Shown: in pieces, positions 1 through 21,611 of the stretch
Layout: the number at the start of each line of letters is the position of its first letter
How positions within the stretch are numbered: position 1 is the first letter of the stretch
Source: an uncultured Clostridia bacterium
Lineage (GTDB): Bacteria; Bacillota; Clostridia; Lachnospirales; Anaerotignaceae
Assembly (NCBI GenBank): GCA_944379995.1
Contig: CALWGF010000003.1
Coordinates: 1-64,000, forward strand
Reading direction: 5' to 3'
DNA length: 64,000 nucleotides
The notes under the pieces: generated by a model
Database searches by the model: none
Seen by the model: the letters and a program-made list of their open reading frames with translations, nothing else
Told to the model about the DNA's origin: nothing
Made by a program: the position numbers and the translations under genes

Positions 1-41
1 GGGAATTTTTTTGCATTATCACTCCGCTAAAGCTTGTACTG

Positions 42-62
42 ACCACCGGCCTAGCCGGAGGT
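42..62 (+). other. GC-rich hairpin, possible insertion-sequence end or terminator
   Basis: An imperfect hairpin has arms ACC-a-CCGGC and GCCGG-a-GGT around a CTA loop, followed by TTTATT. It is far richer in GC than its surroundings. Hairpins of this kind sit near the ends of IS200/IS605-type elements and TnpB guide RNAs, so an element may lie just left of the window. It could equally be an ordinary plus-strand terminator of an unseen gene. No transposase is visible here. Confidence 0.3.
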
Positions 63-81
63 TTTATTGATAAACAACAAT

Positions 82-106
82 AAACGGTACTAAAAAAGTA
101 CCGTTT
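82..106 (-). terminator. Terminator of the hydrogenase operon
   Basis: Perfect 9-bp inverted repeat AAACGGTAC/GTACCGTTT with a 7-nt loop, 12 bp beyond the stop codon of the last hydrogenase gene. The T-rich tract that follows on the minus strand is interrupted, so termination may be leaky. Confidence 0.6.
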
Positions 107-117
107 ATAATTATTGA

Positions 118-1596
118 TTAATCATTTTTTTCATAATGTCTTTCAAGGTCAATAGATTTAAGGTCAAACACTCTTATAGCGTCAAGACTATTTTCTTCTT
201 TTGAAAGTTTTCCGTATTTATCAACTTGTCCAAGGTCTTTTGGTCCATGTGAAAGTGAAGCTGCTCCACCAATACAGCCACCTTTACAAGCCATACCCTC
301 TATAAAATTAAATGGAAGTTTTCCTAGTGAAGCAACTTTTAATGTTTTAACACATTCTGCAAGCCCGTCACATTTTGTAGGTTTAAAATCAGCTTCAATT
401 CCTTCAAGTTTAATTACTTGAGTAACAGCATCTGTTACACCACCACTTCTTGCAAATATTCTTCCATAATATGAAGCATTATCAAGAGCAACTTCGTCAC
501 ATTCTTTAAGATTAATTTCCATAGCATCAAATATAGCTTGAAGTTCCTCAAATGTCATTGTATACTCAACAGCATCTTTTATATCTTCCATTTTTATTTC
601 CATTTTCTTCGCTGTACAAGGTCCAACAAAAACAACCTTTGCATCTGGGTCAGTTGATTTTATAATTCTTGCAATAGCAACCATAGGAGATACTGTTCCG
701 GAAACATGACTCATAAGGTCAGGATACTGTTTCTTTATGTAGTTAACAAAAGCAGGACAGCAAGATGTTGTCATCCATTTTCTTTCGTCTACTGTTTCTG
801 CAAACTCATGAGCTTCGTGATATGAAACTATATCTGCACCAAGGGCAGCTTCTACTGCATGATAAAATCCTATTTTTTCTATACCAGCAATAACTTGTTC
901 AATTTTTACATCTGTAAACTGGCTTGAAATAGCTGGTGCAACAACAGCATATACTTTATATTTTGTATTATTTTCTGAGTCTTTTATAAGTTTCATTATA
1001 TCAAGAACATATGATTTATCAACTATTGCACCAAAAGGACAGTTATAAACACAAGCACCACAAGATACACATTTTGTATCATCAATATGAGCTTTTCTAT
1101 TTTCGTCCATACTTATTGCATTAATAGCACAAGAACGTATACATGGTCTTTGAACTTCACTTATCGCATTAAATGGACAAACAGCTTTACATCTTCCACA
1201 TTCAATACATTTATTTTGGTCGATATATGCTCTTTGGTTCATAATAATAATAGCATCTTTAGGACAGTTTTCATGACATTTGTGTCCAAGGCAACCTCTA
1301 CAAGCCTCTGTTACAACAAATCTATCAATAGGACATTCGTCACAGGCTTCCGGAAGAATTTGTATTACATTATCTCCCTTAAGAGGTTCCATTGTAAGTT
1401 TTGCTCTTTCCTGTATAATATGTCTTTCTTTATATATACAGCAACGAGTCATAGGTTTTGGACCTGGAATAAGAGTTTCAGAAATATCATTAAGACTTTC
1501 AAGAGTATTTGTTAAAGTATTACTTAAAAATCTTTTTACAAGTTCTTTATTAACCATATATTTTATATATTGAACATTACTTTCAAATTTACGCAT
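118..1596 (-). CDS. Ferredoxin-type [FeFe] hydrogenase, group B
   Basis: A 492-residue cytoplasmic iron-sulfur protein that probably makes or oxidises H2 with ferredoxin. The N-terminal third has a CxxC-rich segment and [4Fe-4S] motifs (CIECGRCKAVCP, CVSCGACVYNCP). The H-cluster motifs follow: TTSCCPAF near residue 276, VGPCTAKK near 322 and EGMACKGGCIGG near 432. All four H-cluster cysteines and the proton-relay cysteine (first C of SCCP) are present. TSCCPAF instead of TSCCPxW and the compact ferredoxin architecture fit group B of the usual [FeFe] classification. It is the last gene of the operon with the sensory hydrogenase and phosphatase. A paralogue lies at 20.1 kb. The physiological role of group B enzymes is poorly known. 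Confidence 0.9.
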   Translation of the reverse strand: MRKFESNVQYIKYMVNKELVKRFLSNTLTNTLESLNDISETLIPGPKPMTRCCIYKERHIIQERAKLTMEPLKGDNVIQILPEACDECPIDRFVVTEACRGCLGHKCHENCPKDAIIIMNQRAYIDQNKCIECGRCKAVCPFNAISEVQRPCIRSCAINAISMDENRKAHIDDTKCVSCGACVYNCPFGAIVDKSYVLDIMKLIKDSENNTKYKVYAVVAPAISSQFTDVKIEQVIAGIEKIGFYHAVEAALGADIVSYHEAHEFAETVDERKWMTTSCCPAFVNYIKKQYPDLMSHVSGTVSPMVAIARIIKSTDPDAKVVFVGPCTAKKMEIKMEDIKDAVEYTMTFEELQAIFDAMEINLKECDEVALDNASYYGRIFARSGGVTDAVTQVIKLEGIEADFKPTKCDGLAECVKTLKVASLGKLPFNFIEGMACKGGCIGGAASLSHGPKDLGQVDKYGKLSKEENSLDAIRVFDLKSIDLERHYEKND

Positions 1597-1620
1597 AATT
1601 TACCCCTTTTAAATTATTAT

Positions 1621-2790
1621 TTATGTATATTTTATATTGACTTCTTTACCCATTTTTTCAATTAAATCAGCTAATTTTTTAATCTGATTTATTTTAAAAT
1701 TAAATCCCATAGGGAAACTTTCTGCTTGATGTGCTGGGTTTATAGCCTGTCCGACCCATAAATTAAGCTTATCACAATCTTCTATAAGAAGTCTTGCAAG
1801 CATTGCTGCTGCATTTCTCTCTTGTAACTTAGGAAGTATCCTAGGCATTTCCATAGTATTGTTATATGAAGTTATAAGCTCTATTGCTTTATTTATTGTT
1901 ATAACACCTTCTGTAACAAGTTCTATTCTAGGCAGTATTGCAACAGGCGGAACAGTTGATGTCATTGTAGAAACATCTATTTCTATTTCACAACCAAGCA
2001 TTCTTGCCATTATATTAGCTGTTGTTCCTCCACAAACAACAACTTTTCCTTCAGCTGCAAGTATTTCATTTACAACAGAAAAATCTTCTTCTGGATTTTT
2101 TGGCGGTCCTGTAAAAAGGTTTATTGTATTTTGTTTTCTTATTTTTACAGCAAGTACCGTTGTATCATCTCCAGCTTCGCCTTCATAATATGTATTACAT
2201 TGATTTAATACATATCTTATTGTAGCCTTTGTTGAAACATTATTTTTAGATATTTCTTTAAGATAATTTTCAACATTTTCTCTTTGCCAACCAAGATTAA
2301 GACTTTTTCCAACACCAGCATGTACAACACCATCACTTACAGCTACTATCATACTTTCTTCATCAATGGTAAAATTACTTTCATAAATTATTTTATCATT
2401 TATTACTCTTTTAACCTTATGAATTTCTTTACTTTCACCATTTTTAATAAGAAATATTGAAGGATTATCAAACTCGGCTGCATAAACATTTCCATCATTA
2501 TAAACCTTTATAATTGTAAATGTAGAATATGCAAGTTTTCTTTCAGAACATACAGGCAATGTATGAACTATTGTATCTATTGTATCCTCAAGACTTGCAC
2601 CCTCTTTAAGCATTGTTGCAGCTATTTTAGATGTTAACGTAGCAAGTATATTTGCTTTTACACCACTTCCCAAACCGTCAGACAAAACAAGTATTTTACT
2701 ATCTGGTAAATTTACTTGTTCAACATGGTCACCACAAAGTTCCTCATTATGCTTTATAATACTGTTATAGGCTGTATCAATAAAAAACAA
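1621..2790 (-). CDS. SpoIIE/PP2C-type serine phosphatase linked to the hydrogenase sensor
   Basis: A 389-residue soluble protein. Residues 1-220 form a SpoIIE-type PP2C fold with the metal-binding aspartates in VLSDGLGSG, VAVSDGV and GDDTTVLAV. This predicts dephosphorylation of a Ser/Thr-phosphorylated partner, typically a STAS anti-sigma-factor antagonist. Residues 225-389 form a separate C-terminal region (VVVCGGTTANIMAR) that I do not recognise. The start is TTG, placed by GAGGGTGATTAATT just upstream, and lies 2 nt from the stop of the sensory hydrogenase. The proximity supports a hydrogenase-sensor to phosphatase relay, as in 'phosphatase-linked' group C3 loci. No STAS protein or kinase is encoded nearby. 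Confidence 0.85.
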   Translation of the reverse strand: MFFIDTAYNSIIKHNEELCGDHVEQVNLPDSKILVLSDGLGSGVKANILATLTSKIAATMLKEGASLEDTIDTIVHTLPVCSERKLAYSTFTIIKVYNDGNVYAAEFDNPSIFLIKNGESKEIHKVKRVINDKIIYESNFTIDEESMIVAVSDGVVHAGVGKSLNLGWQRENVENYLKEISKNNVSTKATIRYVLNQCNTYYEGEAGDDTTVLAVKIRKQNTINLFTGPPKNPEEDFSVVNEILAAEGKVVVCGGTTANIMARMLGCEIEIDVSTMTSTVPPVAILPRIELVTEGVITINKAIELITSYNNTMEMPRILPKLQERNAAAMLARLLIEDCDKLNLWVGQAINPAHQAESFPMGFNFKINQIKKLADLIEKMGKEVNIKYT

Positions 2791-2792
2791 AA

Positions 2793-4499
2793 TTAATCAC
2801 CCTCTTTTATAACAACATCTCTAAGTTTTGTAAGAGCAACTTTTGTTTCAGCAGTAGTTTCGCCCATAAGACTTGCTATAAGCTGTGCAACTCTCATCTG
2901 CTTTTCTATAACCTCATTTGTTGTCTTTACAGTTTGCTTTTTAAGAAGTGCCATTTCAGCTTTTCGTTTTTCATCTTGAGTTATATCCTGCATTGTTATA
3001 AGTATTTCGTTTTGCTCTTTTATGTATATAATATTTTGAAGTACAACTTTATCATAATTTTCAAGTTTAACTTTTTTACTTATTATGTCATTTTCATCTT
3101 TAATACACTTTAAAATATTATCAGCAGGAATAATATCTTCAATACTCTTTCCTACTATTTCATTTGCAGATACTCCAAATACTTTTTCAGCAGCAGGATT
3201 AAAATTAACAACTTTAAGATGTCTATTAAGTACAATTATCACATTTCTAGAATTAAAGAATATTGTACCATTAATATTTTCTGCCTTTATACGCATATAA
3301 GGCATACACATATCTGTTGTTGACATACCCTCATAAACAGCTTGTGCTTTTTTTCTACAACTATCATATCCACAAGCACCACAATCAAGTTCATCTGCTT
3401 TTGAATATTTACCCATTCTTTTTAATATTTTTATTATTTCTTCATCAGGTGCTTTTTCACGTATTACAGGATTTGGTTTATAATCAGCTTTTAAATCTAT
3501 TTTACTCCAGTCAATATTGCTTTTATTTATATTCCAACCTTTTTTAGCAAAAAATCTCATTTTCTGTTTACGTAAAAATAAATTATCAAAGTCACTAGGC
3601 ATAAACGGACCATTTATACAAGACTCATAACAAGCAGAAATACCTATATACGCACGTCTTATAGAGCCATTTTCAATAGACTCAAATAAATTTTTAACAT
3701 GGTCTAATCCATTTACTTTTAACATATCATATCCATTTTTTTCTATAACTTCTTGAAGTCCTACCCACATATCACCTGATATTGAATAATTATCACCACA
3801 ACTATTAGGAGTTATATCTGGTACAGACGGTTCCATAGTATCCATATCTATAAAACTATGTTTAAACATTCTCATAATTTCAACAAATGTAATATGAGCA
3901 TTTACAGGTGCATCATCTAAAAACGGATACGTAAGAGCTTTTTTACTCATACATGGTCCTATATATACTGTATATGCATCTGGTTCTTGTTGTTTTATAG
4001 CCTTTCCGACTGCTTCAATAGGAATTACAACAGGCATAAGATACTTTGTAAGTTTTGGATAATATTTTTCTATAAACATATTAACAGAAGGACAACTGCT
4101 GTTTATAATATATTTAACATCTGGATTATTCTCAATATATTTAGTATATTCTTTTATACAAGCCTCTGCTCCTACACCTATTTCACATATTTTACTAAAT
4201 CCAAGTTTTTTTAATGCAGATATAAATTTTTCTGGTTCATCAAAAACACCTATATATGAAGGGTCAATACAAGCAACAACATTTATTCCTGACTTTATTT
4301 TATCCTTAACAATAGAAATATCATTATCCATATTTCTTGCATGTTTTGGACAAGTGACAAAACATTGACCACAAGCAATACATTTTTCTTCATCAATAAC
4401 AGCTATATTATTATCAAACCTTATAGCCTTAACAGGACAACTTCTTACACATTTATAACAATTTTTACAATGCTCTGCTGTGAAATTAAATAATTTCAT
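2793..4499 (-). CDS. hydS: PAS-domain sensory [FeFe] hydrogenase (HydS, group C3-like)
   Basis: A 568-residue protein. In order: two [4Fe-4S] ferredoxin motifs (CKNCYKCVRSCP, CIACGQCFVTCP); an H-cluster domain with NSSCPSV (about 130), YIGPCMSKK (about 180) and ISACYESC (about 287); a four-cysteine Fe-S motif (CGACGYDSC, about 375); a PAS domain (about 415-500); and a charged helical tail. The usual TSCCP is NSSCP here, so the proton-relay cysteine is serine while the cluster ligands remain. This is typical of slow, sensory enzymes. The ATG at 4499 overlaps the preceding stop (TGATG) after AAGGTG; the longer GTG start at 4505 is less likely. Probable role: sensing H2 or redox state and signalling to the adjacent phosphatase. 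Confidence 0.88.
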   Translation of the reverse strand: MKLFNFTAEHCKNCYKCVRSCPVKAIRFDNNIAVIDEEKCIACGQCFVTCPKHARNMDNDISIVKDKIKSGINVVACIDPSYIGVFDEPEKFISALKKLGFSKICEIGVGAEACIKEYTKYIENNPDVKYIINSSCPSVNMFIEKYYPKLTKYLMPVVIPIEAVGKAIKQQEPDAYTVYIGPCMSKKALTYPFLDDAPVNAHITFVEIMRMFKHSFIDMDTMEPSVPDITPNSCGDNYSISGDMWVGLQEVIEKNGYDMLKVNGLDHVKNLFESIENGSIRRAYIGISACYESCINGPFMPSDFDNLFLRKQKMRFFAKKGWNINKSNIDWSKIDLKADYKPNPVIREKAPDEEIIKILKRMGKYSKADELDCGACGYDSCRKKAQAVYEGMSTTDMCMPYMRIKAENINGTIFFNSRNVIIVLNRHLKVVNFNPAAEKVFGVSANEIVGKSIEDIIPADNILKCIKDENDIISKKVKLENYDKVVLQNIIYIKEQNEILITMQDITQDEKRKAEMALLKKQTVKTTNEVIEKQMRVAQLIASLMGETTAETKVALTKLRDVVIKEGD

Positions 4500-4741
4500 C
4501 AGCACACCTTCTTCCTCACAATACTATTAAAGAATTCCTCTGCTGTTTCTGGCTGTACAGAATAAATTTTTTCATCAAATCTTACAGAAACAGCACCTAC
4601 ACAATTTCCAAGACAAAAACTTGCTTTTACATCTACTTTTTCAGTCATATCATTTTCAGATATAAGTTTTTCAAAAATCTTTATTATGTCATAAGAGCCT
4701 TTTAAATGACATGCACTTCCAATACAAACATTAATAACCAT
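4499..4741 (-). CDS. Thioredoxin-like [2Fe-2S] ferredoxin (HymA/NuoE-like)
   Basis: An 80-residue protein with four cysteines arranged as CIGSACH near the N-terminus and SFCLGNC around residue 43. This is the ligand pattern of the thioredoxin-fold [2Fe-2S] domain found in NuoE, HymA and HydC. It lacks the N-terminal helical part of NuoE, so it is the isolated electron-carrier domain. It is the first gene of the operon, starting at an ATG after GGAGAG and overlapping hydS by one base. It probably passes electrons to or from the sensory hydrogenase. Confidence 0.85.
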   Translation of the reverse strand: MVINVCIGSACHLKGSYDIIKIFEKLISENDMTEKVDVKASFCLGNCVGAVSVRFDEKIYSVQPETAEEFFNSIVRKKVC

Positions 4742-4795
4742 AATTTATTTTCTCTCCTTTTGTACTTATTGATAATGACACATATAATCACACCA

Positions 4796-4824
4796 ATTAC
4801 AATATATCTATGCATCTATATCAA
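4796..4824 (-). promoter_or_regulatory. Promoter of the hydrogenase-sensor operon
   Basis: On the minus strand, TTGATA (4824-4819), a 17-bp spacer and TGTAAT (4801-4796); each hexamer matches consensus at 5 of 6 positions. It leaves a leader of about 50 nt. No Rex-like TTGT...ACAA palindrome was seen. Confidence 0.5.
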
Positions 4825-5075
4825 ATTTATATAAAATTAATAATAGATACTTATAATTAGCATACAACATTTTTAAATATTTTTCTATATTATAATTTAT
4901 TTTTTTACATTATAATTCTAATTCAATAATAAATACAATTTATGACCTATAAAATTATAAGTTTTGCACAATAAACATTTTACAAATAATATATTGTATT
5001 CAAAATACTTTAATACTCAATTTAAAACACAATATAAATATGTTTTTATACAATAAATAAAATAATTATTTTTTC
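4825..5075. other. Intergenic, AT-rich, no gene seen
   Basis: This is the middle of the 398-bp divergent region between the hydrogenase operon and the ABC-F gene. It is nearly pure A/T with no convincing ORF, RNA or operator. Confidence 0.6.
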
Positions 5076-5104
5076 TTGAAAACATAGTATTTTTAGTGTA
5101 CACT
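5076..5104 (+). promoter_or_regulatory. Promoter of the ABC-F gene
   Basis: TTGAAA, 17 bp, TACACT, followed by a leader of about 30 nt carrying AAGGAG (5127-5132). The leader is too short for the ribosome-stalling attenuators seen ahead of antibiotic-resistance ABC-F genes. Confidence 0.5.
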
Positions 5105-5139
5105 CAACAGAGCAACTATATTTTATAAGGAGTTTTGAA

Positions 5140-6696
5140 ATGAGTATTTTAAATGTAACAAATTTAAGTCATGGATTTGGTGATAGAGCTATTTTTAATA
5201 ATGTATCATTTCGTCTTTTAAAAGGCGAACATGTTGGATTTATAGGTGCAAATGGCGAAGGTAAATCTACATTTATGAATATTGTAACAGGTAAACTTCA
5301 ACCTGATGAGGGAAAAATAGAATGGGCAAAAAATGTACGTGTAGGTTATCTTGACCAGCATACAGTTCTTGAAAAAGGTATGACTATAAGAGATGTTCTT
5401 AAATCTGCTTTTTCATACCTTTTTGATATGGAAGCAAGTATGAATGAAATGTATGGAAAAATGGGTGATGCTACTCCTGAGGAGCTTGAAACTCTTATGG
5501 AAGAAACAGGCACAATACAAGATTTACTTGACTCTCACGATTTTTATATTATAGATGCAAAAGTTGATGAAGTTGGTCGTGCCCTTGGTCTTGAAGATAT
5601 TGGTTTTGATAAAGATGTTACAGAGCTTAGTGGTGGGCAAAGAACAAAAGTACTTTTGGGAAAACTTCTTCTTGAAAAGCCTGATATACTTCTTTTAGAC
5701 GAGCCTACAAACTATCTTGATGTTCAGCATATAGAATGGCTTAAAAGATACCTTATTGATTATGAAAACGCTTTTATACTTATATCTCATGATATACCAT
5801 TCCTTAATAGTGTTATAAATCTTATATATCATGTTGAAAATCAAGAAATAAATAGGTATGTTGGAGATTATGATAAATTCCAAGAAATATATGCAATGAA
5901 AAAAGCACAGCTTGAAGCAGCATATAAAAGACAGCAGCAAGAAATTGATGAACTTAAAGATTTTGTTGCAAGAAATAAAGCAAGAGTTTCAACAAGAAAT
6001 ATGGCTATGTCAAGACAGAAAAAACTTGATAAAATGGAAATAATAGAACTTGCAAAAGAAAAACCAAAGCCAGAATTTAACTTCAAAGAAGCAAGAGCTT
6101 CAAGTAGATATATATTTAAAACAGAAGACCTTGTAATAGGATATGATGAACCACTTTCAAAACCATTAAATCTTGAAATGGAAAGAGGACAGAAAATAGT
6201 TCTTACAGGTGCAAATGGTATTGGTAAAACAACACTTTTAAAAAGTATATTAGGGCTTATACCACCTCTTTCAGGAAAAGTTGAACTTGGCGACTATTTA
6301 AGTATAGGATATTTTGAACAAGAAAAGAAATATGAAAATAATATAAGCTGTATAGATGAAATATGGGCAGAGTTTCCTTCATTTAATCAGTATGAAGTTC
6401 GTTCTGCTCTTGCAAAATGTGGACTTACTACAAAACATATTGAAAGTATGGTAAAAGTATTAAGTGGTGGAGAACAAGCAAAAGTACGACTTTGTAAACT
6501 TATAAATAGAGAAAGTAACATACTTCTTTTAGACGAGCCTACAAACCATCTTGATGTTGATGCAAAAGATGAACTTAAAAGAGCTTTAAAAGCATATAAA
6601 GGAAGTATACTTCTTATATGTCATGAACCTGAATTTTATGACGGTCTTGCAACAGATGTATGGAATTGTGAAACTTGGACAACAAAACATATTTAA
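5140..6696 (+). CDS. ABC-F family ATPase (YbiT/YkpA-like)
   Basis: A 518-residue soluble protein with two fused ATP-binding cassettes and no membrane segment. Walker A motifs are GANGEGKST and GANGIGKTT, signatures are LSGGQRTK and LSGGEQAK, and both cassettes have LLLDEPTN. The domains are joined by a charged, helical P-site-tRNA-interaction linker (about residues 245-315). ABC-F proteins bind the ribosomal E site and help stalled or slow translation. Length and layout resemble the housekeeping YbiT branch rather than a resistance determinant, though subfamily assignment by eye is uncertain. It is monocistronic. Confidence 0.88.
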   Translation: MSILNVTNLSHGFGDRAIFNNVSFRLLKGEHVGFIGANGEGKSTFMNIVTGKLQPDEGKIEWAKNVRVGYLDQHTVLEKGMTIRDVLKSAFSYLFDMEASMNEMYGKMGDATPEELETLMEETGTIQDLLDSHDFYIIDAKVDEVGRALGLEDIGFDKDVTELSGGQRTKVLLGKLLLEKPDILLLDEPTNYLDVQHIEWLKRYLIDYENAFILISHDIPFLNSVINLIYHVENQEINRYVGDYDKFQEIYAMKKAQLEAAYKRQQQEIDELKDFVARNKARVSTRNMAMSRQKKLDKMEIIELAKEKPKPEFNFKEARASSRYIFKTEDLVIGYDEPLSKPLNLEMERGQKIVLTGANGIGKTTLLKSILGLIPPLSGKVELGDYLSIGYFEQEKKYENNISCIDEIWAEFPSFNQYEVRSALAKCGLTTKHIESMVKVLSGGEQAKVRLCKLINRESNILLLDEPTNHLDVDAKDELKRALKAYKGSILLICHEPEFYDGLATDVWNCETWTTKHI

Positions 6697-6711
6697 AAAT
6701 TATAAAAATAA

Positions 6712-6735
6712 AAACCACAGAATAATCTGTGGTTT
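6712..6735. terminator. Bidirectional terminator between ABC-F gene and yajC
   Basis: Inverted repeat AAACCACAG/CTGTGGTTT with a 6-nt loop, flanked by an A tract on the left and a T tract on the right. It can serve both converging genes. Confidence 0.85.
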
Positions 6736-6743
6736 TTTTATTT

Positions 6744-7205
6744 TTATTTATCTTCTTTTTTACCAAAACCGAATAATGATTTTTTAGGTTTTTCTTCAAC
6801 AACAGGCTCAGCCTCTTTGTTTGAAAGATTTGGTTCTCTAACAAGAGCAACTTCCTGTTTAAGTACAGGTATACGAATACCTTTATTTGTACCAAATTCA
6901 ATAACAAAACATTCAGCTGTTATATCAGCTACTGTTCCAAACATACCATTATTTAATAAAACTGGGTCACCAACTTTAATTACTGAACGCATAGCTTCTG
7001 CTTCTGCTTCTCTTTTCTTTTGTGGTTTTACAGAAAATAAATAGAAAACACCAAAAATAACAACACAATATATAACAACAACCATAACAGGATTTGAGAA
7101 AAATCCACCTGCTGCTTGTGCTGTATTTTCTGCTGCTCCACTTGTAGAAGCTCCACTTCCAACTACGGAACTTGTTGCATTAAGTAAACACATAAAATTA
7201 CTCAT
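6744..7205 (-). CDS. yajC: Preprotein translocase subunit YajC
   Basis: A 153-residue protein. One N-terminal membrane segment (about residues 40-58) is followed by the YajC core: KPQKKR, a 'VGDPVLLNNGMFGTV' stretch and a beta-rich tail. YajC associates with SecDF-SecYEG in the membrane. The region ahead of the membrane segment is unusually long and rich in Gly/Ala/Ser, and the C-terminus has a Lys-rich extension. The start follows AAGGAGAGAATATTA. It lies downstream of tgt, a classic neighbour. Confidence 0.92.
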   Translation of the reverse strand: MSNFMCLLNATSSVVGSGASTSGAAENTAQAAGGFFSNPVMVVVIYCVVIFGVFYLFSVKPQKKREAEAEAMRSVIKVGDPVLLNNGMFGTVADITAECFVIEFGTNKGIRIPVLKQEVALVREPNLSNKEAEPVVEEKPKKSLFGFGKKEDK

Positions 7206-7310
7206 TAATATTCTCTCCTTTTCAATTTATTATTCTTTGAATAATAAAGCATAGTAAATAAATTATATTAAAATCGTTTACAATAGTCAAACATATTTTA
7301 GCATATTTAA

Positions 7311-8444
7311 TTATTTACTATTTTCCTTAAAGCCTTCAAGTTTAGCTTTTTTATATTCAACAAACCTATCTTGTTCTATTGCTTCTCTTATTTCTTCCAT
7401 CATTGTATTGAAGAAATGAAGATTATGCATAACACAAAGACGCATAGCAAGCATTTCTTTTGCTTTGAAAAGATGACGAATATAAGCTTTTGTATATCTT
7501 TGACAAGTTGGACATGTACATGTTTCATCAATAGGTGTATCATCAAGCTCATATTTTGCATTCATAAGATTAAGTTTGCCTTTATTAGTATATACGTTAG
7601 CATGTCGACCATTTCTTGCTGGAAGAACACAATCGAAGAAGTCAACACCTCTTTCAACTGCTTCAAGTATATTTTCCGGTGTACCTACACCCATAAGATA
7701 TGTAGGTTTATTCTGTGGAAGATATGGCACAACTTCTTCAAGTATATGATACATTTCTTCATGTGTTTCACCAACGGCAAGACCACCAATAGCATATCCA
7801 TCTAAATCCATTTCTGATATAACTTTTGCATGTTCAATTCTTATATCAGAATATATAGCACCTTGGTTTATACCAAAAAGCATCTGTTTTTTATTTATTG
7901 TATCATCAAGGCTGTTAAGTCTTTGTATTTCAGCTTTTGAACGAGCAAGCCATCTTGTTGTTCTTGCAACAGATTGTTCAACATAATTTCTTTCAGCAGG
8001 TATTCCAATACATTCATCAAAAGCCATAGCTATTGTTGAAGCAAGATTTGACTGTATTCTCATACTTTCTTCTGGTCCCATAAATATTTTTCTTCCATCT
8101 ATATGGGAATTAAAATATACACCCTCTTCTGTTATTTTTCTTAAAGAAGTAAGTGAAAAAACCTGAAATCCACCAGAATCAGTAAGTATAGGTTTATCCC
8201 AAACCATAAATTTATGAAGACCACCAAGTTTTTTTACAACTTCATCTCCTGGTCTTAAATGAAGATGATATGTGTTTGAAAGTTCAACTTGACATTTGAT
8301 TTTTTCTAAATCTTCAGTTGAAAGTGCTCCTTTTATGGCTGCAAGAGTTCCAACATTCATAAAAACAGGTGTCTGTATTACACCATGAGGAGTATGGAAC
8401 TCACCTCTTTTTGCTCTACCACATGTTTTTAATAATTTGTACAT
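7311..8444 (-). CDS. tgt: tRNA-guanine transglycosylase (queuine/preQ1)
   Basis: A 377-residue enzyme that exchanges guanine at tRNA position 34 for preQ1 in queuosine synthesis. The catalytic motif TDSGGFQVFSL, the second aspartate in FDCVLPARNGRHA and the zinc motif CTCPTCQRYT plus a later His are visible. The ATG at 8444, after GGAGAGT, fits the family N-terminus (MYKLLKTCGRAKRGEF); the upstream in-frame ATG adds ten residues without a good ribosome site. The neighbouring yajC shows the common tgt-yajC order. Confidence 0.95.
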   Translation of the reverse strand: MYKLLKTCGRAKRGEFHTPHGVIQTPVFMNVGTLAAIKGALSTEDLEKIKCQVELSNTYHLHLRPGDEVVKKLGGLHKFMVWDKPILTDSGGFQVFSLTSLRKITEEGVYFNSHIDGRKIFMGPEESMRIQSNLASTIAMAFDECIGIPAERNYVEQSVARTTRWLARSKAEIQRLNSLDDTINKKQMLFGINQGAIYSDIRIEHAKVISEMDLDGYAIGGLAVGETHEEMYHILEEVVPYLPQNKPTYLMGVGTPENILEAVERGVDFFDCVLPARNGRHANVYTNKGKLNLMNAKYELDDTPIDETCTCPTCQRYTKAYIRHLFKAKEMLAMRLCVMHNLHFFNTMMEEIREAIEQDRFVEYKKAKLEGFKENSK

Positions 8445-8594
8445 TAATACTCTCCATTCTTTAAATATAATCACTCAATCAATAAATACTATACATTTAA
8501 ACATTATTTTTTTCAAGTATAATAATTATGTGTATGAAAAATCAACTTTTTTTGATATAATAATTGCAAATAAAATAAGTAATGGAGAAATTTT

Positions 8595-9734
8595 ATGGAA
8601 AAAATAAATCTTATAGCAACAACAACATTTGGGCTTGAAGCCGTTGTTAAAAGAGAACTTATATCTCTTGGTTTTGATGACATAAAGGCATCTGACGGAA
8701 AAGTTGAATTTACAGGTGATGAAAGTACAATAGTTAAAGCTAATATGTGGCTTCGTTGTGCTGGACGTGTTTGGATAAAAATGGGTGAATTTAAGGCAGT
8801 TACTTTTGATGAACTTTTTGAAAAAACAAAGGCTCTTCCTTGGGGTGACTGGATACCTGTTGACGGAAAATTCACTGTTGTAGGTAAATCAGTAAAATCA
8901 ACGCTTTTCAGCGTTTCAGACTGTCAGGCAATAGTTAAAAAAGCTGTTGTTGAAAAACTTAAACAAAAATATAAAGTTGACTGGTTTGATGAAACAGGAG
9001 CAGAATATAAAATACAAGTTGCAATACTTAAAGATATGGTTACTCTTGCAATAGATACATCTGGTTCAAGTCTTCACAAAAGAGGTTATCGTGCCGATGC
9101 TATGACAGCACCTCTAAAAGAGTCACTTGCTGCTGCAATGGTACAATTAAGCTATTGGAGAAAAGACAGAATACTTCTTGACCCATTCTGTGGTTCTGGA
9201 ACAATTCCTATTGAAGCTGCTCTTATAGGAAGAAATATAGCACCTGGTTTAAACAGAAAATTTGCTTCCGAAGAATGGGAAAGAATTGACCCTGCTCTTT
9301 GGAAACAAGCAAGAATTGACGCATATAAAGCAATAGATTATGACACAGAACTTAAAATTTATGGAACTGACATTGACCCTGAAGCAATAGAAGTAGCAAA
9401 AGAAAATGCTATAAAAGCTGGTGTTGATGACTGTATAACATTCGAAGTAAAACCTTGTGAAGAAACAACACTTATGGGAGATTATGGTGTGCTTATAACA
9501 AATCCACCATATGGCGAACGTCTTGGAGAACTTAAAGAAGTAGAAAATATTTACAGAGCATTAGGAAGAATAATGGCTGAAAATACAACTTGGTCAACAT
9601 ATCTTATAACTTCTATGGAATATTTTGAAAAACTTTTCGGAAGAAAAGCTGATGCAAAAAGAAAACTTTTTAATGGTAGAATTAAAACAGATTACTACCA
9701 GTTCTATGGTCCAAGACCACCTAAAAAAAATTAA
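8595..9734 (+). CDS. THUMP-domain 23S rRNA methyltransferase (RlmL/YpsC-like)
   Basis: A 379-residue enzyme with an N-terminal ferredoxin-like/THUMP RNA-binding region (about 1-160) and a Rossmann methyltransferase domain. The SAM site is DPFCGSGTIPIEAA and the target-amine motif is NPPYGERLG, the signature of N2-guanine methyltransferases. The closest known relative in Bacillus is YpsC. The start follows GGAGAAATTTT. An extended -10 (TGATATAAT, 8553-8561) lies upstream. Confidence 0.9.
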   Translation: MEKINLIATTTFGLEAVVKRELISLGFDDIKASDGKVEFTGDESTIVKANMWLRCAGRVWIKMGEFKAVTFDELFEKTKALPWGDWIPVDGKFTVVGKSVKSTLFSVSDCQAIVKKAVVEKLKQKYKVDWFDETGAEYKIQVAILKDMVTLAIDTSGSSLHKRGYRADAMTAPLKESLAAAMVQLSYWRKDRILLDPFCGSGTIPIEAALIGRNIAPGLNRKFASEEWERIDPALWKQARIDAYKAIDYDTELKIYGTDIDPEAIEVAKENAIKAGVDDCITFEVKPCEETTLMGDYGVLITNPPYGERLGELKEVENIYRALGRIMAENTTWSTYLITSMEYFEKLFGRKADAKRKLFNGRIKTDYYQFYGPRPPKKN

Positions 9735-11548: not shown

Positions 11549-12820
11549 TTAAAGTTTATATTCTTTTCTTCCAATATCTGTGCGGAAATGTTTTTTATCA
11601 AAGTCTACAATTTCAACACCTTCATAGGCTGTTTTTATAGCTTCGTTAATATTATCACCTATACCTGTAATTCCTAAAACACGTCCACCATTTGTAACAA
11701 GTTTTCCGTCTTTTTCTGCTGTACCTGCATGGAATACAACTATATTATTATATTTTTTAATTTCATCAAGCCCTTTTATCTCAAAGCCTTTTTCATATTC
11801 AACAGGGTATCCGCCACTTGCAAGAACAACACATACAGCAGCATTATCATACCATTCTATATTCATATCAGCAAGTTTTCCATCAACACAAGCCTCCATA
11901 ATTTCAAGAAGGTCTGTTTTAAGTCTTGGAAGAACAACTTGTGTTTCAGGGTCACCAAAACGTGCATTATATTCTATAACTTTCATACCATCTTTTGTAA
12001 GCATAAGTCCAAAATAAAGTATACCAACAAAAGGACGTCCTTCTTTTGCCATAGCATCAACAGTAGGCTGGAATATTGTTTTCATACATTCTTCATTCAT
12101 TTCTTCTGTATAGAAAACACTTGGTGAGAATGTACCCATACCACCTGTATTAAGTCCTTTGTCTCCGTCTAAAGCTCTTTTATGGTCTTGAGCACTTACC
12201 ATAGGCACAACTGTTTTACCGTCACAGAATGAAAGCACAGAAACTTCTGGACCTTGTAAAAACTCTTCTATTACAACTGCATTTCCAGCAGAACCGAATT
12301 TTTTATCAAGCATTATTTCCTTAAGTCCTTCTTCTGCTTCTTCTCTTGTCATACAGATTAAAACACCTTTTCCAAGAGCAAGACCATCTGCTTTTATAAC
12401 AATAGGCATTTCTTGACTATCAAGATATTTTTTAGCTTCTTCATAATCTGTAAATGACTCATATTTAGCAGTAGGTATTCCATATTTTTTCATAAGGTCT
12501 TTAGAAAAAGCCTTACTACCTTCAATTATAGCAGCATTTTTTCTTGGACCGAAAACTCTTAAACCTTCTTTTTCAAATGCATCAACAACACCACCAACAA
12601 GAGGGTCGTCCATACCTATTATTGTAAAATCTATATTTTCTTTTTTTGCAAAATCAACAAGTTTATCAAATTCCATAGCACCAATAGGAACACACTCAGC
12701 ATCAAGTCCTATTCCTGCATTACCTGGTGCACAATATATTTTTTCAATATTAGCATTTTTTTTAAGTGACCAAACAATGGCATGTTCACGTCCGCCGCTT
12801 CCTACTACAAGAACTTTCAT
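11549..12820 (-). CDS. purD: Phosphoribosylamine-glycine ligase
   Basis: A 423-residue ATP-grasp enzyme of de novo purine synthesis that makes glycinamide ribonucleotide. The N-terminus VLVVGSGGREHAI, the ATP-grasp core (VIKADGLALGKGV) and EYNARFGDPE are diagnostic. It is the last gene of purM-purN-purD, 3 bp after purN, with AGGAGG before the ATG. Full length. Confidence 0.97.
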   Translation of the reverse strand: MKVLVVGSGGREHAIVWSLKKNANIEKIYCAPGNAGIGLDAECVPIGAMEFDKLVDFAKKENIDFTIIGMDDPLVGGVVDAFEKEGLRVFGPRKNAAIIEGSKAFSKDLMKKYGIPTAKYESFTDYEEAKKYLDSQEMPIVIKADGLALGKGVLICMTREEAEEGLKEIMLDKKFGSAGNAVVIEEFLQGPEVSVLSFCDGKTVVPMVSAQDHKRALDGDKGLNTGGMGTFSPSVFYTEEMNEECMKTIFQPTVDAMAKEGRPFVGILYFGLMLTKDGMKVIEYNARFGDPETQVVLPRLKTDLLEIMEACVDGKLADMNIEWYDNAAVCVVLASGGYPVEYEKGFEIKGLDEIKKYNNIVVFHAGTAEKDGKLVTNGGRVLGITGIGDNINEAIKTAYEGVEIVDFDKKHFRTDIGRKEYKL

Positions 12821-20084: not shown

Positions 20085-21611
20085 ATGGGAAGTATGAGAG
20101 GAATTTATAACTCTGTAACAGATATACGTAGACAAGTATTTACTGAAATAGCACGACTTGCATATGAAGGTGGTAACTATGCTGAAAAAATAGAAGCATT
20201 ACCATATAAAATTCTTCCAGGAGAACGTGCAAAATATCGTGATTCAATATTCTTAGAAAGAGCAATAACAGGAGAACGTCTTCGTCTTGGAATAGGTCTT
20301 CCTTTAAGAAGAATGGACGAGCATGCTCCTCTTAGTACAGGAATTGAAGAAAGTGCAATAGCAGAAAAATATTATGATGACCCACTTATAAACATAATAA
20401 AATTTGCTTGTAATGCCTGCCCTGAAAAGAAAATAGAAGTAACATCAACATGTCAAGGTTGTCTTGCTCACCCTTGTGTTGAGGTTTGTCCTAAAGATGC
20501 AATACATATTGTAAACGGAAAATCTCTTATAGACCAAGATAAATGTATTAAATGTGGTAGATGTGTAGATGTATGTCCTTATCATGCTATTAATAAACTT
20601 GAAAGACCTTGTGCTTTAAGCTGTGGTATGGACGCTATAAAATCAGACGAACTTGGAAGAGCTGAAATTGATTATGACAAATGTGTATCTTGTGGTATGT
20701 GTCTTGTAAACTGTCCATTTGGTGCTATTGTAGATAAAGGACAGATTTTCCAAACAATTCATGCAATGAAATCTGGTAAAGAAGTAATAGCTGCTGTTGC
20801 TCCTGCTTTTGTTGGTCAGTTTGGACCTACTGTTACACCAGAAAAAGTTAAATCTGCATTAAAAGAACTTGGCTTTGCAGATGTTGTTGAAGTTGCAATA
20901 GGTGCTGACCTTTGTACTGTTGAAGAAGCTGAAGACTTCCTTAAAAAAGTACCTAATGAACAACCATTTATGGCAACAAGCTGTTGTCCTGCATGGTCAG
21001 TAATGGCTAAAAAACTTTTCCCACAGTTTAAACCATATATTTCAATGGCATTAACTCCTATGGTACTTACAGGACGTCTTATTAAAAAACAAAAACCTGA
21101 TGCAAAAGTTGTATTTATCGGACCTTGTGCTGCTAAAAAACTTGAAGCAAGCAGAAAGAGTGTAAGAAGTGATGTTGATTTTGTATTAACATTTGAAGAA
21201 GTAATGGGTATGTTTGAAGCAAAAGGAATTGACCTTCCTAATGTAGTTGCTGATACACCATTTAATGAAGGTACTGCAAATGGTCGTGGATTTGCTGTAA
21301 GTGGTGGTGTTGCAAATGCTGTTAAAGAATGTATACAGAAAAAATATCCTGATAAAGAAGTTCTTATTGAGTCAGCAGAAGGCTTAAAGAACTGTAAAAC
21401 AATGCTTATGATGGCTAAAGCAGGAAAACGTGATGGATACCTTCTTGAAGGTATGGCTTGTCCTGGCGGTTGTGTTGCTGGTGCAGGAACACTTCAAGCT
21501 GTTATGAAATCAACAACTCTTGTTAAAAAATACACTTCAGAAGCAGAAAAGAAACTTGCTCTTGAAAGCGATTATTTAGATAATCTTCATATTTTAACAG
21601 AAGAAGAATAA
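20085..21611 (+). CDS. Ferredoxin-type [FeFe] hydrogenase, group B (second copy)
   Basis: A 508-residue cytoplasmic hydrogenase. Iron-sulfur motifs (CNACP, CQGCLAHPCVEVCP, CIKCGRCVDVCP, CVSCGMCLVNCP) precede the H-cluster motifs TSCCPAW (about 298), IGPCAAKK (about 345) and EGMACPGGCVAG (about 455). All ligand and proton-relay cysteines are present. It resembles the gene at 118-1596 throughout but keeps TSCCPAW, and its N-terminus differs. It has its own ribosome site (GAGGTGAT) and terminator and stands alone, with no sensor or phosphatase. It is probably the housekeeping group B enzyme. Confidence 0.92.
   Translation: MGSMRGIYNSVTDIRRQVFTEIARLAYEGGNYAEKIEALPYKILPGERAKYRDSIFLERAITGERLRLGIGLPLRRMDEHAPLSTGIEESAIAEKYYDDPLINIIKFACNACPEKKIEVTSTCQGCLAHPCVEVCPKDAIHIVNGKSLIDQDKCIKCGRCVDVCPYHAINKLERPCALSCGMDAIKSDELGRAEIDYDKCVSCGMCLVNCPFGAIVDKGQIFQTIHAMKSGKEVIAAVAPAFVGQFGPTVTPEKVKSALKELGFADVVEVAIGADLCTVEEAEDFLKKVPNEQPFMATSCCPAWSVMAKKLFPQFKPYISMALTPMVLTGRLIKKQKPDAKVVFIGPCAAKKLEASRKSVRSDVDFVLTFEEVMGMFEAKGIDLPNVVADTPFNEGTANGRGFAVSGGVANAVKECIQKKYPDKEVLIESAEGLKNCKTMLMMAKAGKRDGYLLEGMACPGGCVAGAGTLQAVMKSTTLVKKYTSEAEKKLALESDYLDNLHILTEEE

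Follow-up and report, generated by a model that had tools for sequence, protein, structure and literature searches.

A conserved hfsABCD-type operon of an uncultured Clostridia bacterium probably encodes a hydrogen- or redox-responsive signalling system

Background

Modules combining the sensory [FeFe] hydrogenase HydS with a phosphatase are widespread in fermenting Clostridia, where they are thought to set the amounts of H2 and ethanol, and they are of relevance to rumen and gut H2 and to biofuel strains. One such module occupies an end of the 64,000-nucleotide stretch of DNA analysed here (the window) and raises the question of what its phosphatase acts upon. The original prediction placed H2 or redox state upstream of HydS, HydS upstream of the phosphatase and an unseen STAS protein or other phosphoprotein at the output, and regarded the signalling output of such systems as not worked out. 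The matter is less open than that, since the operon is already known as hfsABCD or hydS-hydA2 and has been studied genetically elsewhere, so that the arrangement itself is not new.

Deletion of hfsA or hfsB has been shown to increase ethanol yield and adhE transcript provided that hfsC and hfsD are intact, whilst loss of hfsB raises total hydrogenase activity, alters adhE transcription and lifts NADH-ADH activity beyond what the transcript explains (PMC5707799). Because hfsB-hfsD transcripts fall two- to six-fold in the hfsA deletion as well (PMC5707799), the epistasis argument loses force. Regulation of fermentation products and adhE in this way is documented for Thermoanaerobacterium and C. 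thermocellum alone (PMC5707799). HfsB and HfsD are the equivalents of HydS and HydA2 of R. albus (PMC11837493), in which an eight-gene cluster is 111-fold down in low-H2 co-culture with an H2 consumer and H2 sensing by the sensory hydrogenase and its phosphatase has been proposed (PMC6776011). Group B enzymes have been purified and found to reoxidise ferredoxin (PMC12578642).

In this work we have compared the window operon with its relatives across Clostridia. The comparison speaks against a STAS output, names a kinase encoded beside adhE as a candidate partner and singles out two parts of the system, the C-terminal helix of HydS and the C-terminal domain of the phosphatase HfsC.

Results

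Organization of the operon

According to the ORF listing the region from 4741 down to 118 is filled by four genes, all on the minus strand, in the order typical of hfsABCD/hydS systems: a [2Fe-2S] protein, a PAS-bearing hydrogenase, a SpoIIE-type phosphatase and a further hydrogenase. The hfsA-like gene (4499..4741, 80 aa) encodes a thioredoxin-like [2Fe-2S] protein, the hfsB/hydS-like gene (2793..4505, 570 aa) a group C-type [FeFe] hydrogenase, the hfsC-like gene (1621..2790, 389 aa, TTG start) a SpoIIE-family PP2C phosphatase and the hfsD-like gene (118..1596, 492 aa) a group B [FeFe] hydrogenase. The stop codon of hfsA and the ATG of hfsB have one base in common (TGATG, 4501-4499), the overlap growing to 7 bp with the GTG at 4505 chosen by the ORF caller, and gaps of 2 bp and 24 bp separate hfsB from hfsC and hfsC from hfsD, so the tight spacing originally described is borne out.

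A terminator-like stem-loop with a 12-pair stem, a consensus match only, follows hfsD (80..108, minus strand), and the stem scan detected no such structure on the minus strand within the operon. The AT-rich intergenic region upstream of hfsA (4742..5139), shared with a divergent ABC-F gene, is the presumed promoter region, and a single promoter for the four genes is plausible. There was no Rex-box-like site upstream of hfsA (the window as a whole has 32 matches, 33.7 being expected by chance), and control of the operon by Rex was rejected on this ground. No Rfam match was obtained for window positions 1-9000. The search for an upstream motif common to the family returned short k-mers only; it says nothing about regulation, because coding sequence (the end of purD) precedes the operon in several relatives. 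In several same-family genomes (L232, L234-L236, L238-L240) hfsA begins tens of bases past the apparent purD end, so that transcription of the hfs operon may start from the purine operon in these genomes; the purD of the window (11549-12820) lies 7 kb from the hfs operon. A second TIGR04105 group B hydrogenase gene (20085-21611, plus strand, 638 bits) is situated 15 kb off with no sensor linked to it, among neighbours that include genes for a VWA-domain protein and a rubrerythrin-like protein, and is also present in a genome of the same genus (G292, 93% identity, L243).

Iron-sulphur and hydrogenase components

HfsA matches PF01257 (E 1.9e-7) and corresponds to residues 572-629 of T. maritima HydA (7p5h_A, E 8e-11). 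Pfam and alignment divide HydS into two [4Fe-4S] clusters, the H-cluster domain (Fe_hyd_lg_C), a PF04060 FeS site, a PAS domain (PAS_9, E 7.4e-8) and a C-terminal helix (residues 529-563). The H-cluster cysteines 138, 185, 292 and 296 are invariant among 38 relatives, and S137, G183 and S290 stand at the positions of CpI C299, M353 and M497, the correspondence having been set by eye from the motifs. These positions are altered in sensory enzymes (PMC10055695). With its cysteines kept, the three positions altered and a PAS domain present, HydS belongs to the sensory group C [FeFe] hydrogenases and is predicted to bind an H-cluster and to respond to H2, although H2 rather than redox state is only its putative ligand. 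The best-conserved part of the protein is the C-terminal helix, at 85% compared with 47% for the PAS domain (79% once a divergent subfamily is included); such near-invariance fits a contact with the phosphatase, of which the helix is the probable site.

HfsD scores 575.6 bits against TIGR04105 (cut-off 450) and retains the motifs TSCCP, GPC and MACxxGC (GMAC), the prototypical catalytic residues of group B [FeFe] hydrogenases.

The phosphatase HfsC

HfsC is assigned to the SpoIIE-family PP2C phosphatases by its match to PF07228 (E 3.3e-15, 57 bits, cut-off 25) and by the conserved metal-binding aspartates D21, D38, D153, D208 and D209, invariant among 48 homologues, so that all four original gene identities have been confirmed. 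Residues 1-220 form the phosphatase part and residues 221-389 an uncharacterised alpha/beta domain. The AlphaFold model of the full protein (pLDDT 90) has 3pu9 and SpoIIE 5ucg as its top PDB matches. The C-terminal 169 residues (1621..2130, minus strand) are conserved like the catalytic part (0.58 and 0.60, respectively) and are modelled with a pLDDT of 92. They have no match in Pfam and none in Foldseek with E under 0.001 (best E 0.009); the domain is Rossmann-like alpha/beta, its best structural match reaching a VIA Z of 9.1, and a weak profile match was obtained to the phosphoheptose isomerase 3trj (E 0.0022). These matches were unconvincing and the domain has been given no assignment; it may belong to a family that is not listed. 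Phosphatase activity of HfsC and its contact with HydS are predicted from the sequences. The intact active-site residues of HydS, HfsC and HfsD support function, as distinct from proving it.

Conservation of the module across Clostridia

Gene neighbourhoods were compared at 124 loci, 44 of them located by the phosphatase in a sample of 291 Clostridia-class genomes and 80 by a HydS profile in named genomes. HydS was followed directly by the phosphatase at 117 of the 124, a figure that measures linkage and not frequency because either HydS or the phosphatase served to pick each locus and a small number of genomes are represented twice. Of the seven exceptions, three have a contig end soon after HydS and a fourth is an artefact of the called ORF start; a divergent-type HydS of Thermosediminibacter (L097), with no phosphatase directly downstream, is the sole clear exception besides L055 and L068. 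The group B gene is present too at about half of the 124 loci, and the bifurcating HydABC is encoded nearby at about 24. Full-length orthologues of the phosphatase occur in about 81 of the 291 genomes.

Within the family of the window organism HydS was found in 13 of the 23 other genomes (45-77% identity), and relatives of many genera carry the four hfs genes adjacent to one another as far as contig ends permit, a recurrence that, as gene order goes, is far beyond chance. The pairing proved to be conserved, and the predicted operon layout and sensor-phosphatase-hydrogenase logic hold up.

Tandem HydS genes were seen at one locus (HydS - 2Fe-2S - HydS - phosphatase; L046:2788-6586). Some contigs that bear the label Flexilinea (Chloroflexota) or Bacteroidales carry the module as well (L131, L146, L150, L158, L169), which suggests horizontal transfer or, for the MAGs among them, misbinning.

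Discussion

Which protein does HfsC act upon?

The fold of the HfsC phosphatase domain is closest to SpoIIE, RsbU and RsbX, whose known substrates are STAS proteins, and HfsC might by analogy release a sigma factor by dephosphorylating a STAS anti-anti-sigma protein that has gone unseen. The genome content argues against such partner switching. The window genome (88.8% complete) holds two STAS genes, each with its own partners: spoIIAA lies in a spoIIAA-spoIIAB-sigF operon, and an rsbV-like gene in an Rsb-like cluster adjoins a pair of HATPase genes and has a response-regulator phosphatase of its own. Seven HydS-bearing genomes of the same family, 95-100% complete (G294, G300, G302, G303, G305, G307, G312), have a single STAS match each, which in all four inspected, well-assembled genomes is the SpoIIAA of the sigF operon. 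Neither an orphan STAS protein nor a cognate STAS and HATPase kinase set for HfsC was found in the window genome or the same-family hfs genomes inspected. With these genes accounted for by spoIIA and the Rsb-like cluster an orphan STAS substrate is unlikely in this family, though SpoIIAA itself might conceivably serve as one; the STAS/anti-sigma part of the original prediction was rejected, and we regard partner switching as very improbable.

Another candidate emerged from the clustering of neighbouring genes, by which a 249-aa APH-fold protein (PF01636), AdhE and Rex were found near the module. Many rumen and gut Clostridia carry the string rex-adhE-kinase-hfsA-(hfsA)-hfsB-hfsC-hfsD, and the kinase gene adjoins adhE in 26 of 26 genomes lacking the HydS-phosphatase module and at eight of ten further loci (adjacency was recorded at L177-L202 and also at L072, L076 and L098-L162). 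HfsC and the kinase co-occur in 32 genomes (odds ratio 3.5, p 3e-5, shared ancestry not corrected for). In the literature searched no published description of the APH-kinase/adhE pairing was found beyond the R. albus unit. That hydS unit (Zheng et al. 2014, as summarised in PMC5707799) reportedly has genes for a kinase and a redox repressor. The arrangement suggests that a kinase-phosphatase pair may operate around AdhE in the species with this string, and the rise of NADH-ADH activity after hfsB deletion would agree with a pair acting on AdhE or on an adhE regulator. Against it, an APH-fold enzyme may have a small-molecule substrate; a relative of the kinase was found in none of the 24 genomes of the window family, and full-length AdhE in only three, yet hfsABCD is kept in 13 relatives. 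The pair therefore cannot be the mechanism in the window organism, for which it was rejected, and as a general account of HfsC it appears unlikely.

Proposed mechanism

The reading that we favour with reasonable confidence is that of an hfsABCD-type H2/redox signalling operon in which HydS switches HfsC and HfsD is the metabolic arm. Electrons would move between the H-cluster of HydS on one side and the [2Fe-2S] protein HfsA and the accessory FeS clusters on the other, and the redox or H2 state would be relayed by way of the C-terminal FeS site and PAS domain to the near-invariant C-terminal helix, which would touch and switch HfsC. The phosphatase would then dephosphorylate a protein encoded outside the operon, whilst HfsD, under the same control, would discard ferredoxin electrons as H2. 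The mechanism is likely as far as the phosphatase; within it we infer the order of signal flow, the helix contact and a restraint of HfsC by HydS/HfsA, the last because the hfsA/hfsB phenotype requires intact hfsC and hfsD.

It might instead be argued that HfsABCD works chiefly as a single multi-subunit enzyme or electron-transfer complex, HfsD being tuned directly by HydS and HfsC, given the tightly packed operon, the joint role of hfsD and the other genes in ferredoxin reoxidation (PMC11837493, PMC12288451) and the suggestion that HfsABC is possibly an active hydrogenase (PMC13277313). HydS and HfsC, however, often occur without HfsD and adjoin HydABC instead, and the effects of hfsB loss on total hydrogenase activity and adhE transcription also tell against a complex of this kind, which we hold to be quite unlikely. 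The window operon is a real, conserved and probably H2- or redox-responsive signalling operon, a reading that draws on the domains and residues, the adjacency of HydS and phosphatase, the same-family four-gene operons and the helix conservation, as well as on the hfs genetics (PMC5707799, PMC11837493), the drop of the R. albus cluster (PMC6776011) and ferredoxin reoxidation by group B enzymes (PMC12578642). As a tentative and rather doubtful extension, HydS-HfsC could be a portable H2-responsive phosphatase module with a target that depends on the lineage: in the rex-adhE-kinase genomes it would oppose an AdhE-dedicated APH-fold kinase, AdhE or its regulator being controlled post-translationally, and in the AdhE-poor window family it would act on another phosphoprotein, the C-terminal domain of HfsC selecting the target or reading a metabolite.

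Comparison with known systems

The N-terminal 220 residues of HfsC share the fold and metal-site aspartates of SpoIIE, RsbU and RsbX, from which HfsC differs by its extra conserved C-terminal domain and by having no orphan STAS substrate among the genomes surveyed here. The hfsABCD of T. saccharolyticum / thermosaccharolyticum (GQ354412; PMC5707799, PMC11837493) matches the window operon in its four genes and their order, including the PAS domain of HfsB, the serine phosphatase-like HfsC and the ferredoxin-linked HfsD. It belongs to a different lineage, the likeness to GQ354412 being one of gene content, order and domains, and its ethanol output cannot be that of the window organism, since no full-length AdhE was found in the window genome. 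The R. albus 7 hydS-hydA2 unit (PMC5707799, PMC6776011) likewise combines a sensory hydrogenase, a phosphatase and a ferredoxin-only hydrogenase, which are co-transcribed in that species; its eight genes also encode an alcohol/aldehyde dehydrogenase and additional regulators, whereas the window holds the four-gene core. TmHydS of Thermotoga maritima resembles the window HydS in joining an H-cluster to a PAS domain, and the same three positions are altered in both proteins, as S137, G183 and S290 in the window and as A131, G177 and S267 in TmHydS (PMC10055695).
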